24,019 nucleotides of DNA from a virus: the IMG/VR virus record IMGVR_UViG_3300042868_006100, positions 1-24,019 of that record; one strand, given 5' to 3'. The position numbers were made by a program, and so were the translations under genes. This document shows, in pieces, positions 16,116 to 23,300 of this stretch (the first letter of the stretch is position 1; each line of letters starts with the position of its first letter). The notes under the pieces were generated by a model. That model was not told the DNA's origin and ran no database searches. It worked only from the letters and a program-made list of their open reading frames with translations.

Positions 16116-16751
16116 ATGAAAAAAGTATTGTTGTTAGTTACACTATTAGTTATTAGTGTTACATTATTTGCACAAGATGTAGTAGTATTGAAACATACAA
16201 ATTACACATCACACTTCAGTAAATCAAAAAAATATCCAGTAATGGTAGAGTGGTGGGAAACTAAAGCAAAAGTAGGTTGTCCAACTCCATTACCTCGTAA
16301 AGATAATTTCAAACCAGACCCATTGTTACCAGTTGAAACTAATATTGGAAACGACTATGTTGGTAGTGGTTTAGATAGAGGACATTTGATGCCAGCAAAA
16401 TCAAATCAATGTCAAACTCAAGCAGTACAAGACGAATGTTTCTATTATTCAAATATGGCTGCACAAACACATAGGTTGAATGCGGGAGATTGGAAATCAT
16501 TGGAAACCCTAACAAGAGAAATTGCTGCAAGAGAAGATAGTGTTCATATATGGGCTGGTAATGTTGGTGAGATTAGAAGAATAGGTAAAGTTGCAGTTCC
16601 AAAACAATGTTGGAAAGTAGTTTATAGTAAAAAATCAAACGATTGGATGGCATTCTTATTTGAAAATGACCAATCTAATCCAGACGGGATAAACAATAAC
16701 AAAGTAGACTTATCAGACATAGAAAAATTAACAGGCCTAAAATTTAAATAA
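16116..16751 (+). CDS. Secreted DRGH-type non-specific endonuclease (EndA/NucA family)
   Basis: This 211-residue protein has a signal peptide (MKKVLLLVTLLVISVTLFAQ) and the DNA/RNA non-specific endonuclease core. LDRGHLMPA, about residues 85-93, holds the catalytic His of the DRGH motif. YYSNMAAQTHRLNAGDWKSLE follows, with the metal-binding Asn and the conserved N-x-G-x-W helix. These beta-beta-alpha metal nucleases degrade DNA and RNA without sequence preference. The signal peptide sends it out of the cytosol, so it could not readily attack phage DNA inside the cell; breakdown of extracellular or periplasmic DNA is a reasonable inference. Confidence 0.88.
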   Translation: MKKVLLLVTLLVISVTLFAQDVVVLKHTNYTSHFSKSKKYPVMVEWWETKAKVGCPTPLPRKDNFKPDPLLPVETNIGNDYVGSGLDRGHLMPAKSNQCQTQAVQDECFYYSNMAAQTHRLNAGDWKSLETLTREIAAREDSVHIWAGNVGEIRRIGKVAVPKQCWKVVYSKKSNDWMAFLFENDQSNPDGINNNKVDLSDIEKLTGLKFK

Positions 16752-16753
16752 AG

Positions 16754-17194
16754 ATGTTCGTACCAAATCACTTACACCTATTAGTAAAGGGGTATATTAA
16801 GACTCCACCAAAAACAGAAAAAGTGTTAAACATATGGTTTACACAATTAGTACAAAATGTAGGAATGAAAGTGGTTGCAGGGCCCACATCGGTTTATGTA
16901 AATGAACCTGGTAATGAGGGATTGACCGGAACGGTAACACTTGCAACATCACATGCATCAATTCATATTTGGGATAACATAAATCCTGCAATGTTTCAAT
17001 TTGACTTATATAGTTGTTCAAACTTTACACCACAACAGGTTTTAAACCACATTGACGATTGGTTTGGTTTACAAGAAGCACATTGGCAATTCATAGATAG
17101 AAATGGTAGTGAGTTTTACACATTGGATAGTGGAAATTTCAAAAAAGGCCTAAAGTCTAAATTTACGGATGTATTCAAAAAGAAAAAATTCTAA
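16754..17194 (+). CDS. speD: SpeD-like S-adenosylmethionine decarboxylase homologue
   Basis: The core of this 146-residue protein is GMKVVAGPTSVYVNEPGNEG followed by ATSHASIHIWDN and FQFDLYSC. The S-H-x-S-I-H motif matches class 1 AdoMetDC, which self-cleaves before the Ser (here Ser66) to form a pyruvoyl cofactor; His71 and Cys86 match other conserved positions. The residue before Ser is Thr rather than the usual Glu. Canonical SpeD makes decarboxylated AdoMet for spermidine synthesis, but some phage and bacterial SpeD homologues have become ornithine or arginine decarboxylases, so the substrate is uncertain. It is two bases after the nuclease gene and directly abuts the next. Confidence 0.75.
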   Translation: MFVPNHLHLLVKGYIKTPPKTEKVLNIWFTQLVQNVGMKVVAGPTSVYVNEPGNEGLTGTVTLATSHASIHIWDNINPAMFQFDLYSCSNFTPQQVLNHIDDWFGLQEAHWQFIDRNGSEFYTLDSGNFKKGLKSKFTDVFKKKKF

Positions 17195-17854
17195 ATGAGT
17201 TATTTGGTTGCCAACATACCACCAATTGAAGTCTTAATTGATAAGAAATTTCTATATGATTTTCAAAAAGATGAGAAGGGTAATTATTTGGGAGATGGTG
17301 AATGGGAAAGAGGACATTGGGTAAGTGTTAAATCAATTGTAAATCGTGCATTATTATTTGAAACCTACATTGACACATTTGGTGCAGTATATGACAAATT
17401 ACCTATCCATGCATTCCGCTGGAGACCATTAGAAACGGCAGATAAGACCTTTCCTTTGGACTTCTTACAACTTTGGGATTGTCTATCATATAACATATCA
17501 GTCATTGAAAAAAGGGTTCTAAGGGGTGTTAAAACCTATACTACAATGAAAGACCATTCAGTAGTAGAGGGTGAATATCTTTTTACAATTGATACGGCGC
17601 ATTCCGAGCCAAATGAGATTGATACTGGATGGAGTGAAACCCCTAATGAACATAAATGTTACAATATATCTAAGTTAAGTAATGGACAGTTTTGTGCACA
17701 ACCAAATAATAGGACAAGATTTTACCAACCTAGCAGAACTGCAGATATTACTCAAATACCTTACTTTAGATATTCTACAAAAGTGTGGAAATGTGAGGAT
17801 TTTGGAAAATGGAGACCATCCGATACAAATTGGGATTATAGTGATACAAAATAA
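17195..17854 (+). CDS. Conserved-looking hypothetical protein, 219 aa
   Basis: I do not recognise this family. The protein is cytosolic, rich in Trp, Tyr and His, and has densely motif-like stretches such as LPIHAFRWRPLETADKTFPL, LQLWDCLSYNISVIEKRVLR and FTIDTAHSEPNEIDTGWSET, suggesting a folded domain rather than disorder. It begins directly after the speD stop, so a link to the polyamine step or to a virion process is possible but not shown. No cofactor motif is obvious. Confidence 0.6.
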   Translation: MSYLVANIPPIEVLIDKKFLYDFQKDEKGNYLGDGEWERGHWVSVKSIVNRALLFETYIDTFGAVYDKLPIHAFRWRPLETADKTFPLDFLQLWDCLSYNISVIEKRVLRGVKTYTTMKDHSVVEGEYLFTIDTAHSEPNEIDTGWSETPNEHKCYNISKLSNGQFCAQPNNRTRFYQPSRTADITQIPYFRYSTKVWKCEDFGKWRPSDTNWDYSDTK

Positions 17855-18175: not shown

Positions 18176-19690
18176 ATGAGAACTGTATTAATTGGATCGG
18201 ATTTTATGTATGATAAAGATGGTAATTTAAAACCCATTGAAATTAATACAAATGTTGGTTGGCATTATAACATAATAAATGGTAATAATCCTGATTTGGA
18301 CTTAAACTCATTAAACTCATTTATATCGGAAAATGGATTTATTAAAATTGTATACATTGGAAATATGCAATATATAAACTCCACTATACAATCTTATTGT
18401 CAAGAAAACAATATTCAATATCAATATATTAGTTTGGATTCAAATTCTATCACAATTCCAAATATTGAAGATAATGATACTACATTAATTATAAGGAGTT
18501 CATATGATACGACTGCAATAGTTGATGAGACATATTGTAGAGATAAGATTCAATTTCTTAATTTAATTAAAGAAACAGAATTTGGATCACAATTTGCATA
18601 TTTGGATGAATCAAACACATTGGTTAATAACATAACAACAATCAACGATAATGGAGACAACCCTAATTTTATTTTAAAAGCTAGATGGCCATCATATGAT
18701 AAAGATGTATATCCAAAATTCTACAAAGTATCAAATATATCAGAATTAAATGTTCTTATTTCTAATGTAGTAAACTATGATTATTTTTTAATGGAATTTC
18801 ATTATAATCCTACAAAATTAATAGAAAACAATATACAAGTTTTCAGAGGATTAAATATTTTATTTCCACCAAATTTAGAATCAATTTCAATTGGTGGGTA
18901 TACTAGAGTATGTGATAATTCAGTTATAACACCATCAACATTTGACCCTATTACCTTTGAATTAATTGGTGATAGATACAAATATGTTACAAATGATTCT
19001 CATAAAAGTTCACCAAAACTATTAGATACCGATTTAATTCAGATGGCGGATAATAGTTTTAAAGAGGCGAGAGAATTGGTAGTTGGTGATTTAATTAAAA
19101 CAATTGATATTCCAAATCCATTTGATGCAACCGATTCAAATGAAACGGTTAATTATAAAATTGGATTATCTCAATTAGAAACCGAAACACAATACTCAAC
19201 AAATGCAATCACTCATATAGAAAAAATAAATACATATTCACATATTGTAAAACTAACCTTTACAGATGGAACGAATTGGTTTGACAATGAAAATTCTAAA
19301 TATTTATCAATTAGAAATAATGAGGTAAGATTTTTATCCTTATCAACAAAGTTTATTGGAGAATATTCGTTTTCAGTTGGTGACAATATATTATTGATAG
19401 ATACATCTGATTCAATCACTCCAAAATTTGTATCAAAAGAAATATCAAATATTGAAACATTTACTGAATTTTTTGGTGGATATGAAATTTCTGTCGCTAA
19501 TTCTCATTTATTTTTAACAAAAGATTCTGACCAAGAATCAATATCATATGTTTCAATTGAACATAATATTGGTAATCCATGTTCTGTGCCTAATTGTTCA
19601 TACACAGATGATTGTGACAAGGGTCAATATTGTTGTAATTTTACATGTGTTAATGTTGGGAATTGTTTCTGTGATTTTGAAGAAGTATAA
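18176..19690 (+). CDS. ATP-grasp-like, Hint-like, Cys-rich-tail fusion protein
   Basis: The 504-residue protein has three parts. Residues about 1-275 resemble an ATP-grasp ligase: KPIEINTNVGWH (19-30) is the metal-binding E-x-N motif, and FILKARWPSYDKD (about 165-177) looks like the ATP-binding Lys strand. Residues about 278-460 resemble a Hint (intein-like) domain: LDTDLIQMADNS with ELVVGDLIK, SHIVKLTFTDG and GGYEISVANSHLFLT. The last 40 residues hold eight cysteines in a knottin-like spacing (C-x4-C-x5-C-x5-CC-x3-C-x5-C-x-C). The E-x-N motif, usually C-terminal in ATP-grasp, is at the N-terminus, suggesting circular permutation. No clear Cys nucleophile is seen at the Hint start, so splicing ability is uncertain. 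Confidence 0.62.
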   Translation: MRTVLIGSDFMYDKDGNLKPIEINTNVGWHYNIINGNNPDLDLNSLNSFISENGFIKIVYIGNMQYINSTIQSYCQENNIQYQYISLDSNSITIPNIEDNDTTLIIRSSYDTTAIVDETYCRDKIQFLNLIKETEFGSQFAYLDESNTLVNNITTINDNGDNPNFILKARWPSYDKDVYPKFYKVSNISELNVLISNVVNYDYFLMEFHYNPTKLIENNIQVFRGLNILFPPNLESISIGGYTRVCDNSVITPSTFDPITFELIGDRYKYVTNDSHKSSPKLLDTDLIQMADNSFKEARELVVGDLIKTIDIPNPFDATDSNETVNYKIGLSQLETETQYSTNAITHIEKINTYSHIVKLTFTDGTNWFDNENSKYLSIRNNEVRFLSLSTKFIGEYSFSVGDNILLIDTSDSITPKFVSKEISNIETFTEFFGGYEISVANSHLFLTKDSDQESISYVSIEHNIGNPCSVPNCSYTDDCDKGQYCCNFTCVNVGNCFCDFEEV

Positions 19691-19702
19691 TAAAATAAAA
19701 AA

Positions 19703-19780
19703 ATGACAACAAACGAAAAAGAAATAATAAATAACATAATGTCCCAAATAGGTTCATTAATAGTTAAAGAAAACTCTTAA
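19703..19780 (+). CDS. Very short ORF, 25-residue peptide
   Basis: The ATG at 19703 follows a purely A-rich leader (taaaataaaaaa) 12 bases after the fusion-protein stop. The frame runs 25 codons to TAA and encodes MTTNEKEIINNIMSQIGSLI followed by a short Lys/Glu/Asn/Ser tail; the first half is polar and the second contains a hydrophobic patch. Leader type and position support translation, but the length is near chance. It is listed because a short peptide beside an ATP-grasp-like enzyme and a GNAT-like enzyme is reminiscent of modified-peptide loci. Confidence 0.4.
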   Translation: MTTNEKEIINNIMSQIGSLIVKENS

Positions 19781-19800
19781 TTAATCGTAATTCTAATATA

Positions 19801-20220
19801 GTGAAACTTTTTTTACTAAATTATTCCGAATTGGTTCACAGAAACACGGATATAGAAATAAAAGAAACAACAGATAGAGATGAAATACAAAAATGTATAG
19901 ATTTATTTAATTCTGAAATTGTTTGGGATGATATGTTTGATTTAAAAGAAGCATTTCATAGAATTGAAAGTGGCCAAAAAATGTTCATTGGATATAAAAA
20001 TGAATGTTCATTTTGTTATTGTTGGTTGAGAAAAGATGGTGAAGAAGATTATTATTTATATAATGTATTTTCTAAAAAACCAACATCTTTAAGAAAAACA
20101 GGAGTCATAGATTTATTATACTTAGTTATAAAAAATCATACAATCGGAAAAATACACGCCGAAATAAATGATTGGAATATACAATCCCAACGGGTTGCTA
20201 AAAGATTGGGATTTAAGTAA
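19801..20220 (+). CDS. GNAT-like N-acetyltransferase, 139 aa
   Basis: The C-terminus reads IHAEINDWNIQSQRVAKRLGFK, the classic GNAT end motif (N-x-x-S-x-R-x-x-x-x-x-G-F) that packs on acetyl-CoA, after a strand MFIGYKNECSFCYCW. No standard ATG is available upstream of the conserved part, so GTG at 19801 is taken as the start. The protein is near the lower size limit of the family and the N-terminal region is divergent. Substrate unknown; the ATP-grasp/Hint fusion upstream is the natural candidate partner. Confidence 0.68.
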   Translation: MKLFLLNYSELVHRNTDIEIKETTDRDEIQKCIDLFNSEIVWDDMFDLKEAFHRIESGQKMFIGYKNECSFCYCWLRKDGEEDYYLYNVFSKKPTSLRKTGVIDLLYLVIKNHTIGKIHAEINDWNIQSQRVAKRLGFK

Positions 20221-20782: not shown

Positions 20783-21289
20783 ATGAAATATACTATATAT
20801 AAAACAACAAATAAAATAAATAATAAGGTTTACATTGGCAAACATCAAACCTTAAACCCACATGATAACTATATTGGTAGTGGTAAAGCTTTAGAAGAAG
20901 CTATAAAAAAGTACGGAAAATCTTCTTTTAGTAAAGAAGTTCTTTTTATATTTGATACTGAAGCTGAGATGAATGATAAAGAAAAGGAGTTAGTAAACGA
21001 ATCATTTATATCTACTAACTTAACTTATAATATGGGAGTAGGTGGTGAAGGTGGCTCACATTTTTCGGGCAGAAGGCACTCAGATGAGACAAAGGAAAAA
21101 ATAAAAGAAAAACGAAAAAATCAAATCTTTTCAGAGGAAACTAAGAAAAAGATTTCAGAAGCTAATAGGAATAGAATTGTAACAAAAGAAACAAAACTTA
21201 AACTTTCTGAAAAGGGTAAACTTAGATTTAAAAACGAAGAAGCTAGAAAAAAACATTCAGAGTTAATGACTGAATACTATAAAAAATAA
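20783..21289 (+). CDS. GIY-YIG homing endonuclease with NUMOD3 repeats
   Basis: This 168-residue protein has an N-terminal GIY-YIG nuclease module: YTIYKTTNKINNKVYIGKH (the GIY and YIG strands as TIY and YIG), NYIGSGKALEEAIKKYGKSS and FSKEVL, with a Glu/Asp-rich helix (EAEMNDKEKELV). DNA-binding NUMOD3-like repeats follow (HFSGRRHSDETKEKIKEKRK, FSEETKKKISEANRNR, VTKETKLKLSEKGK). It is complete, similar in size to T4 Seg proteins and not enclosed in a recognisable intron, so it is free-standing. It lies between the tmRNA and a tRNA gene, and one of these may carry its target site. GC content and codon use are similar to its neighbours. Confidence 0.9.
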   Translation: MKYTIYKTTNKINNKVYIGKHQTLNPHDNYIGSGKALEEAIKKYGKSSFSKEVLFIFDTEAEMNDKEKELVNESFISTNLTYNMGVGGEGGSHFSGRRHSDETKEKIKEKRKNQIFSEETKKKISEANRNRIVTKETKLKLSEKGKLRFKNEEARKKHSELMTEYYKK

Positions 21290-21757: not shown

Positions 21758-23036
21758 AACCGAAAGGAAAGTTCTTTAAAATATTAAAATCTTTACATAG
21801 TGAGTTCGTCTCACATAGTAAACAACGGCCGCTTATGGTCGTCAAATAAACTACGAAAGTAGGATAAAGTGGGTGTACTTAAGTGGTGCATCTGCGGTTA
21901 CTCTCCCCGTAAGGAGAGACTAACTTAAGTAAGCAAGTGGGATATTATTTGAGCTTTGTACGAAAGGGTAACACTATATCGGAAGAGTTTGAATAGTTGG
22001 GGTAGTATAGATACTCCGACTGAGTTGGGAACAACAATAAGAATAACCCATAGAATATCAGTAAGAAGTGTAGACTTAATCCCTCTACATCATTGCGGTA
22101 TTCAGTTTCAAAGTTATCTTAACATCAAGCCATCCGAAAGGACGCAAGATAAGATAGTGTACAAGTGGTGTTGTTACCATCCTTATATAGAGTTTGCCAA
22201 AACCTATATTTGAAGATGACTTAAAAAACCGCAGTAGGGATATTGCATCGGGTAGTTTAGTATTCTCTCGTTCAAAAGATGAGGGAGCTAGTGGTAAACC
22301 ACTACCTGAATAATTCTATAAACTAAAACTCAATTTTTATTTTGGTATAAAAACTACAATTACAAATTAAGCATGAGTGTTTACCAGTTACGGACGAAAG
22401 GTGTGTACATAGTAGGGAGCTGTTCCTTGCCACGATACCTCCGCAAGAGGTCTGTGATTCTACCGAAAGGTTTCTAATTCCGCAAGAACTAATCAGGCTG
22501 CGAGGCTTGAAGAAAATGACTAAGTAGAGAGTAAGTCGTAACTTAAAGACTGATAGTCTTAAATCATCCACATTGAATTGGTACTACTCAAAAGGTAGTG
22601 GAAACGGGAGGAAACAAATAATCTTTCTAAAGTCGGTTCACCAAATGGAGTATTCTCATCCATTTTTATAAGCGGTCTTAGTGTAATAGTAGCACTCCTA
22701 GCATTCCAGTTGGGGAGAGGTGGGGCAGAACCATTTTACCGCTCAATACGAAGATTTTCGTGGTCTACCTTTTGGCTGTTTCTTATTCAACAGTCAGTTC
22801 GTTTAAGTGACCTAAAAGATATAACGATATAATAAAATAGGAGATAAGTGTTTTAGGGAGGATTTTGACATTAAAAATGCAATCAGAAACGATACACGAT
22901 TGCCGGATTCGTAGAAGTACACTACAAGAGTTACCGCCTCCCATCAAACTCTATTCATGTGCTAAGTAATTTAATGAGGCTTATATTAACCGGAGCATGA
23001 CTTGACGTGGCGTATTTTGAAATTGAATTACTTTTT
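21758..23036 (+). ncRNA. Giant structured non-coding RNA region, about 1.28 kb (GOLLD/ROOL-like candidate)
   Basis: No plausible gene occupies this stretch, but hairpins fill it. 5-prime half: GTGAG/CTCAC (21800-21814), ACGGCC/GGTCGT (21825-21842), CTAC-GAAA-GTAG (21851-21862), a 9-bp TACTTAAGT/ACTTAAGTA helix enclosing CTCTCC/GGAGAG (21876-21931), TGTAGA/TCTACA (22069-22089), TTATCTT/AAGATAA enclosing TCC-GAAA-GGA (22114-22152) and AGTGG-TAAA-CCACT (near 22290). 3-prime half: ACCTC-CGCAA-GAGGT (22437), ACC-GAAA-GGT (22462), AAGAC/GTCTT (22546), ACTAC/GTAGT (22583), ATGGA/TCCAT (22645), AGCGGT/ACCGCT (22671-22743), ACGAA/TTCGT (22748), GGCTGT/ACAGTC (22774) and GGGAGG/CCTCCC enclosing GCAATC/GATTGC (22856-22942). 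AGTAATT/AATTACT plus T5 forms the end. An AT-rich linker near 22310-22370 may separate two RNAs. Confidence 0.68.
22671..22743 (+). other. tRNA-like domain inside the giant RNA
   Basis: AGCGGT and ACCGCT pair as a short acceptor-like helix around 61 bases. Inside is a typical D arm, AGTG-TAATAGTAG-CACT, then a six-pair stem CCTAGC/GTTGGG with loop ATTCCA that contains TCC in anticodon position. No T arm with TTCGA is present. It looks like a degraded tRNA-Gly or a tRNA mimic built into the RNA. Confidence 0.45.
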
Positions 23037-23228: not shown

Positions 23229-23300
23229 GCTTTTTTAGCTCAGAGGTAGAGCACATCACTGTTAATGATGGGGCCGGGATATCGTAATTCTCAAAAAGCG
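23229..23300 (+). tRNA. tRNA-Asn (GTT)
   Basis: Acceptor GCTTTTT/AAAAAGC, D arm GCTC-AGAGGTA-GAGC, anticodon arm CATCA-CTGTTAA-TGATG and discriminator G. The T loop is unusual (ATCGTAA instead of TTCGAAT), with a mismatch at the loop end of the T stem. Confidence 0.88.

Follow-up and report, generated by a model that had tools for sequence, protein, structure and literature searches.

In polymorphic toxins, Hint domains free C-terminal toxin domains. RiPP pathways combine a conserved leader with a variable core peptide beside genes for modifying enzymes. A-type BIL domains carry a C-terminal His-Asn and cleave there without ligating (PMC7765530). Among ATP-grasp enzymes, the R2K clade of phages and bacteria is predicted to modify proteins and has GNAT neighbours (PMC4431377). 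Here we describe a phage gene that has something in common with each of them. It lies on a 24-kb phage fragment (24,019 nucleotides, hereafter the window) and joins an ATP-grasp-like domain, a Hint domain and a Cys-rich tail in one protein (Table 1).

As in polymorphic toxins, the Hint domain of this fusion stands just ahead of a variable C-terminal cargo. Unlike them, the fusion has no secretion module or identified immunity gene, its cargo is very small, and a modification cassette surrounds it. What the fusion shares with RiPP pathways is a candidate core peptide, short and variable, at the C-terminus, with genes for radical SAM, oxygenase, methyltransferase and acetyltransferase enzymes nearby; sequence divergence and gene linkage gave a conserved leader-like body and a variable core next to modifying enzymes. 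The difference is that the leader would be a 464-aa enzyme-like carrier, the enzymes share a tag, a microprotein is a partner and the tail may release itself.

Table 1. Positions of the features in the window and the basis of their assignment
Feature	Position	Strand	Basis
DNA/RNA non-specific endonuclease	16116..16751		PF01223 E 1.5e-37; N-terminus hydrophobic, signal-like
S-adenosylmethionine decarboxylase	16754..17194		PF02675 E 8.9e-13
phrog_3704 'ferredoxin'	17195..17854		E 1.3e-71
Zinc-ribbon protein, 87 aa	17911..18174	+	phrog_13558 E 4.8e-11; ends K-K-S-L-I-COOH (codons 18157-18171)
Fusion gene, 504 aa: ATP-grasp-like + Hint + Cys-rich tail	18176..19690	+	AF2 model pTM 0.74; 108 distinct relatives
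Permuted ATP-grasp-like domain, residues 1-275	18176..19000	+	AF2 pTM 0.83; VIA-align; invariant residues
Hint domain, residues 278-464	19007..19567	+	VIA-align Z 15.3 to 6y75; intein position 1 = K281, TxxH lost
His463-Asn464, predicted C-terminal cleavage site	19562..19567	+	56/56 invariant; H-N before tail in 108/108 distinct copies
Hypervariable tail, residues 465-504, eight cysteines; candidate core peptide	19568..19687	+	Cys counts; divergence vs body
Microprotein gene, 25 aa (MTTNEKEIINNIMSQIGSLIVKENS)	19703..19780	+	Conserved ORF directly 3' of fusion
GNAT-like acetyltransferase, 139 aa, GTG start, no tag	19801..20220	+	Acetyltransf_3 E 0.0033, below cut-off
tmRNA, predicted tag DEKSTMTYNDLMAFVGMDYAVAA	20373..20739		
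GIY-YIG homing-type endonuclease	20783..21289		
GOLLD RNA	22248..22662		Rfam RF02032, 283.8 bits, full length
tRNA-like gene	23229..23300		Rfam 51.5 bits; ARAGORN no call

Outside the cassette, the S-adenosylmethionine decarboxylase gene adjoins that of the phrog_3704 protein. The tmRNA is followed by the GIY-YIG gene and a tRNA-Met, and the GOLLD RNA lies between the tmRNA and a tRNA cluster that the tRNA-like gene heads.

The fusion is a gene of many metagenomic phages

A protein scan of IMG/VR returned full-length relatives in 34 contigs, with the same start Met and 47–63% identity. A profile scan of IMG/VR gave 51 fusion loci, and many further relatives came from scans that started from the radical SAM neighbour or from a divergent clade. 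Full-length relatives were found on more than 100 metagenomic phage contigs, the largest of 335 kb. The full-length homologues, their common start Met and the more than 100 further relatives indicated a genuine gene rather than a chance ORF. For comparison we used 108 distinct copies and a divergent alignment of 56 sequences that reached down to about 25% identity. The first-pass annotation had read a ligase-like, an intein-like and an eight-cysteine module in this protein; homologues and structure models, in which the ATP-grasp and Hint topologies were both recovered, confirmed that architecture.

Scans of 50,697 phage genome records gave no relative of the fusion, and neither did the GTDB genomes scanned. 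A single phage-isolate match was confined to the canonical Hint part. No paralogue within the same phage was found in the seven contigs checked. Pfam and PHROG scans assigned no family to the fusion, its relatives or in-silico re-permuted sequences, and a profile search of PDB sequences gave only weak intein and Ataxin-1 matches. A literature search found no description of such a system.

The N-terminal domain has an ATP-grasp fold with invariant catalytic-type residues

The model of residues 1–275 was compared with known structures. With VIA-align, all 50 matches listed were ATP-grasp enzymes, the best with a Z of 8.9 over 205 residues, bearing out the proposed ligase-like module. The highest Z scores were those of YjfC (8.9), YgiC (8.4), eukaryotic glutathione synthetase (8.4) and GspS (8.0); trypanothione synthetase, TTL and LysX/ArgX came lower. 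Foldseek alone gave weak matches (LysX/ArgX, E 0.08). Residues D9, E22, N24, R107, D111, D117, K168 and R224 were invariant in the divergent alignment (56/56). Against the catalytic-residue template for the superfamily (PMC4431377), K168 is the RAGNYA strand 2 Lys, R224 is the kinase-like strand 1 Arg, and D9, E22 and N24 are the metal-binding Asp and ExN residues. The invariance of these catalytic-type residues speaks for an active enzyme.

The N-terminal position of the ExN motif had been taken as a sign of circular permutation. The order is indeed permuted, but it is not unique. YjfC/YgiC, eukaryotic glutathione synthetase and GspS align with the model from residue 1 to 275 in colinear order, so the N-terminal D..ExN of the fusion follows an order already known from the GspS group. 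Eukaryotic glutathione synthetase owes its origin to gene permutation (Polekhina 1999, cited in PMC2213659). The fusion shares with these enzymes the colinear fold and a D..ExN near the N-terminus; unlike them, it has no detectable sequence similarity to the group, is fused to a Hint domain and is phage-encoded. Like R2K proteins, it is a phage ATP-grasp protein with GNAT neighbours. We rejected membership of that clade because the second Lys is not universal (the best candidate, K181, is present in 42/56), and the permuted order is a further difference.

The Hint domain keeps only its C-terminal edge

Residues 278–466 matched 6y75 (Tetrahymena BIL2) with a Z of 15.3 over 146 residues at 2.8 Å. 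Dozens of inteins were matched, many with Z above 13. In the 6y75 alignment, intein residue 1 is K281 and the last intein residue, Asn, is N464. Family members have K, Y or G at position 1 and have lost TxxH; known intein chemistry therefore gives no reason to expect the usual reaction at the N-terminal edge. The residue at +1 is variable, and the F-block His, which helps Asn cyclisation in inteins, is not conserved. A splicing intein was rejected, as position 1 holds no Cys, Ser or Thr (or class 2 Ala) and there is no +1 nucleophile. Thus, the proposed intein-like cleavage module stood as to its fold, whereas its N-terminal nucleophile and TxxH are lost and splicing is not expected.

H463 and N464 were the only invariant Hint columns in the 56-sequence alignment. 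The family thus has the C-terminal His-Asn of A-type BIL domains in 108/108 copies and lacks their N-terminal nucleophile and TxxH. Like A-type BIL domains and Tetrahymena BIL2, the fusion combines a Hint fold and a C-terminal His-Asn with a variable flanking region; unlike them, it has no N-terminal Cys or Ser, stands behind an ATP-grasp domain and carries a Cys-rich peptide as cargo. The invariant His-Asn and the A-type BIL precedent point to C-terminal release as the most likely retained function, for which the missing F-block His is a caution.

The Cys-rich tail varies fast under constraint

After the His-Asn pair, the tail runs for about 25–56 residues. The 102 short-tailed forms contained six cysteines in 73 cases, eight in 28 and nine in one, and the body showed no such six-or-eight pattern. 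In the first set, the tail composition was 19% Cys, 12% Pro, 12% Ser, 10% Gly and 7% Tyr; tail cores of the second clade, for example SCWCPWNYCGHWCNSWYCPSC, end in K-(L/I). The eight-cysteine tail noted in the first pass is real, while its label as a Cys-knot is not established. Cystine-knot and WAP mini-proteins are defined by fixed Cys spacing and knotted connectivity; the tails seen here have six or eight cysteines at variable spacing.

Tails averaged 49% identity, against 84% for the body, where the bodies were 80–90% identical. The body had a dN/dS of 0.079; that of the tail was 0.21, rising to 0.31 when only its non-Cys codons were counted. By these measures tail evolution is fast yet constrained, and positive selection is unsupported at a tail dN/dS of 0.21.

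Six long forms have no such tail. In its place stand one to three complete canonical Hint domains, arranged in tandem, and the cassette and the tag are kept; the Cys-rich tail therefore does not account for everything and may not be the only substrate of the enzymes. In L146:179-2917 and L151:218-2956, the degenerate Hint domain ends in VSHN and three complete canonical Hint domains follow; in L168:3063-4925, one follows the same ending. The Hint domains of these three proteins are a few residues apart, and the proteins end in HNK or HNKV.

A microprotein and a cassette of tailoring genes accompany the fusion

All 37 first-set loci, all 18 divergent loci and all 80 further loci have an ORF of 24–50 aa directly 3' of the fusion. 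In the 37 first-set loci, its differences were 1662 synonymous versus 714 nonsynonymous. The C-terminus is IGxLIxxANS in the clade of the window and KHL or AHS in others. This conservation and synonymous excess indicate that the microprotein is a real gene, the most constant partner of the fusion. The short peptide ORF of the first-pass annotation was thus upheld by the homologue search, being present after every copy of the fusion examined. The gene set as a whole did not prove unconserved either, with the zinc-ribbon cluster present in 23/25 loci. The GNAT is as real as the ribbon (its relative in L044 matched Acetyltransf_1 at E 1.9e-4, over the cut-off), but it occurs in only 4/25 loci and is an optional member.

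Around the fusion, the cassettes encode 2OG-Fe oxygenases, radical SAM, sulfotransferase-like, SGNH-like, SET and SDR proteins, methyltransferases, GNATs and the zinc ribbon. 2OG-FeII_Oxy_3 (PF13640) was matched by 22 of the 32 oxygenase members (best E 1.9e-16), and their HxD..H triad is nearly invariant. The radical SAM enzyme matched Radical_SAM at E 6.6e-8, and in every radical SAM locus with at least 5 kb of upstream sequence, that sequence holds a relative of the fusion, the most distant of them about 25% identical. The SET protein matched SET at E 3.8e-13. The sulfotransferase-like proteins have a PxCAS loop, with weak Pfam support (best E 0.0034). Just upstream, about 9–12 of 25 loci encode an APS kinase (E 4e-17), a nucleotidyltransferase and a protein that we take to be DUF2061-like. 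From its family assignment, the APS kinase would supply PAPS for the sulfotransferases.

The window itself holds few tailoring genes; 2OG oxygenases, radical SAM enzymes and sulfotransferases are present only in its relatives. The suggestion of a peptide-modifying or self-processing system thus gained a peptide-modifying context, although the main modification genes lie outside the window and we infer cleavage, modification and function.

Unrelated cassette proteins share a C-terminal tag

The ending K-x-(T/S/K/N)-(L/I)-(I/L)-COOH recurs in cassette proteins of at least eight unrelated families, and most of the enzymes have endings that read as the shorter form K-x-(T/S)-L-I-COOH. In the window, the zinc ribbon is the only carrier (KKSLI); the first-pass annotation was made from the window sequence, where the tagged enzymes of relatives are out of view. 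With a fixed pattern, the tag was found in 128/225 ORFs 1.5–8 kb downstream of the fusion versus 14/221 upstream, where composition predicts 0.3% (P 5e-33). The pattern was chosen after the loci had been viewed, and the P value overstates independence because the counts take in related genes. Counted by family, the numbers were 14/42 downstream versus 5/97 upstream. Because tailoring genes occur in the upstream zones too, this contrast is, if anything, understated.

Elsewhere in the 335-kb phage, the tag was found in 6/133 ORFs, and in distant blocks of two other contigs in 0/114 ORFs. Divergent loci obtained later had it in 94/164 ORFs near the fusion versus 14/60 further out. The Hsp20, HD-hydrolase and nucleotidyltransferase core neighbours never matched it. 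Third codon positions of the tag vary freely and synonymously, indicating selection on the peptide. A DNA-level signal was rejected on this variation and on the varied sequence downstream. A stop/start overlap was also rejected, since the stops are mostly TAA and sharing bases with the next ATG constrains no more than the third position of the final codon. Nor is the tag a general trait of phage 2OG clusters, as 1/14 ends resembled it in cyanophage S-SCSM2R. In cyanophage S-RIM2 (L172, HQ317291.1 22581-32213), a relative of the zinc ribbon and a 2OG-Fe oxygenase are encoded between genes of fibre type, and both lack the tag.

A proposed peptide-maturation pathway and its alternatives

Our proposal builds on the architecture, the invariant residues, the variability and cysteine parity of the tail, the microprotein, the gene linkage and the tag, all read from sequences or models. 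From them we infer docking, modification, cleavage, ligation and a peptide target as follows. The fusion would be the carrier-precursor of a phage-encoded RiPP-like peptide pathway, in which an ATP-grasp/Hint carrier ends in the core peptide, the Cys- and aromatic-rich tail. The tailoring enzymes (2OG-Fe oxygenases, radical SAM enzymes, sulfotransferases, methyltransferases and GNAT) would dock, mostly via the K-x-(T/S)-L-I tag, and modify the tail. In the Hint domain, disabled at its N-terminal edge, Asn464 would cyclise and free the tail peptide, whose disulfides would form away from the reducing cytoplasm, either once the cell has lysed or on the virion. An amide bond in the pathway would be the work of the ATP-grasp domain, perhaps with the microprotein or a tagged C-terminus. 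A competitor, the host surface or a receptor on the virion are candidate targets. We judge the chance that this proposal is right to be close to even.

The same evidence can be read in other ways. The main rival is a virion-displayed modified tip: the fusion, cleaved or not, would sit in the particle, its fast-evolving tail forming a tip that binds a receptor or surface, while virion proteins would be hydroxylated, sulfated and glycosylated by the enzymes. The variability of the tail agrees with this, as do the cyanophage zinc ribbon and oxygenase between fibre-type genes. Moreover, a tail sheath gene (phrog_23 E 4.3e-72; contractile tail) adjoins the cassette in L033, as does a gene for an 1811-aa repeat protein in L139, and sugar-pathway and carbamoyltransferase genes lie near cassettes, so virion decoration also fits. 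We nevertheless consider this rival unlikely. For a structural tip it would be odd to begin with an enzyme domain whose catalytic residues are invariant, and odd to have a His-Asn edge of the cleavage type; nor did the fusion contain a recognisable fibre or tail domain of known kind.

Two further readings move the weight to one domain. The substrates of the ATP-grasp domain might be the tagged enzymes or the microprotein, at their C-terminal carboxylates, as in LysX/LysW, RimK/S6 and TTL/tubulin, with the Hint domain and the tail regulating or targeting it. Such a ligase would explain why the permuted domain keeps all catalytic-type residues, why unrelated proteins share one C-terminal tag and why the C-terminus of the microprotein is conserved, and TTL and LysX/ArgX are among the structural matches. 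A shared C-terminal motif could equally be a docking site, however, and the microprotein ends (ANS, KHL) are unlike the tag, which makes this reading improbable. The least probable, in our estimation, is a non-cleaving scaffold, in which a dead Hint fold would act as structural spacer, and the tail would bind metal or serve in assembly. The N-terminal nucleophile, TxxH and the F-block His are all lost, and the tail is of low confidence in the AF2 model, as such a scaffold would have it. Yet in a Hint domain that otherwise varies freely, His-Asn alone is fully invariant, and it lies right at the cleavage edge; moreover, tails with six cysteines are ill-suited to simple four-Cys metal sites.

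Returning to the carrier-precursor pathway, we propose tentatively, and somewhat less firmly than the pathway itself, that these loci form an undescribed and widespread class of phage peptide maturation. In such a class, a precursor would bring its own amide ligase and a C-terminal-only Hint domain, the microprotein would be obligate, tag-recruited enzymes of at least eight families would be swappable, and diversity would arise by exchanging core and enzymes. Two features were found in no described system: an enzyme-fused precursor with predicted self-release, and a common C-terminal tag, the predicted docking site, on unrelated enzymes. In the literature searched, combinatorial peptide-modification pathways of this size were not reported for any phage. 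With relatives on more than 100 metagenomic phage contigs and in no sequenced isolate searched, the family may be a common trait of environmental phages that has been overlooked. Recruitment of unrelated tailoring enzymes by one shared C-terminal tag would amount to a new principle, which engineered pathways might be able to borrow, and a Hint domain reduced to its C-terminal reaction would show a route from a self-splicing element to a peptide-release device.
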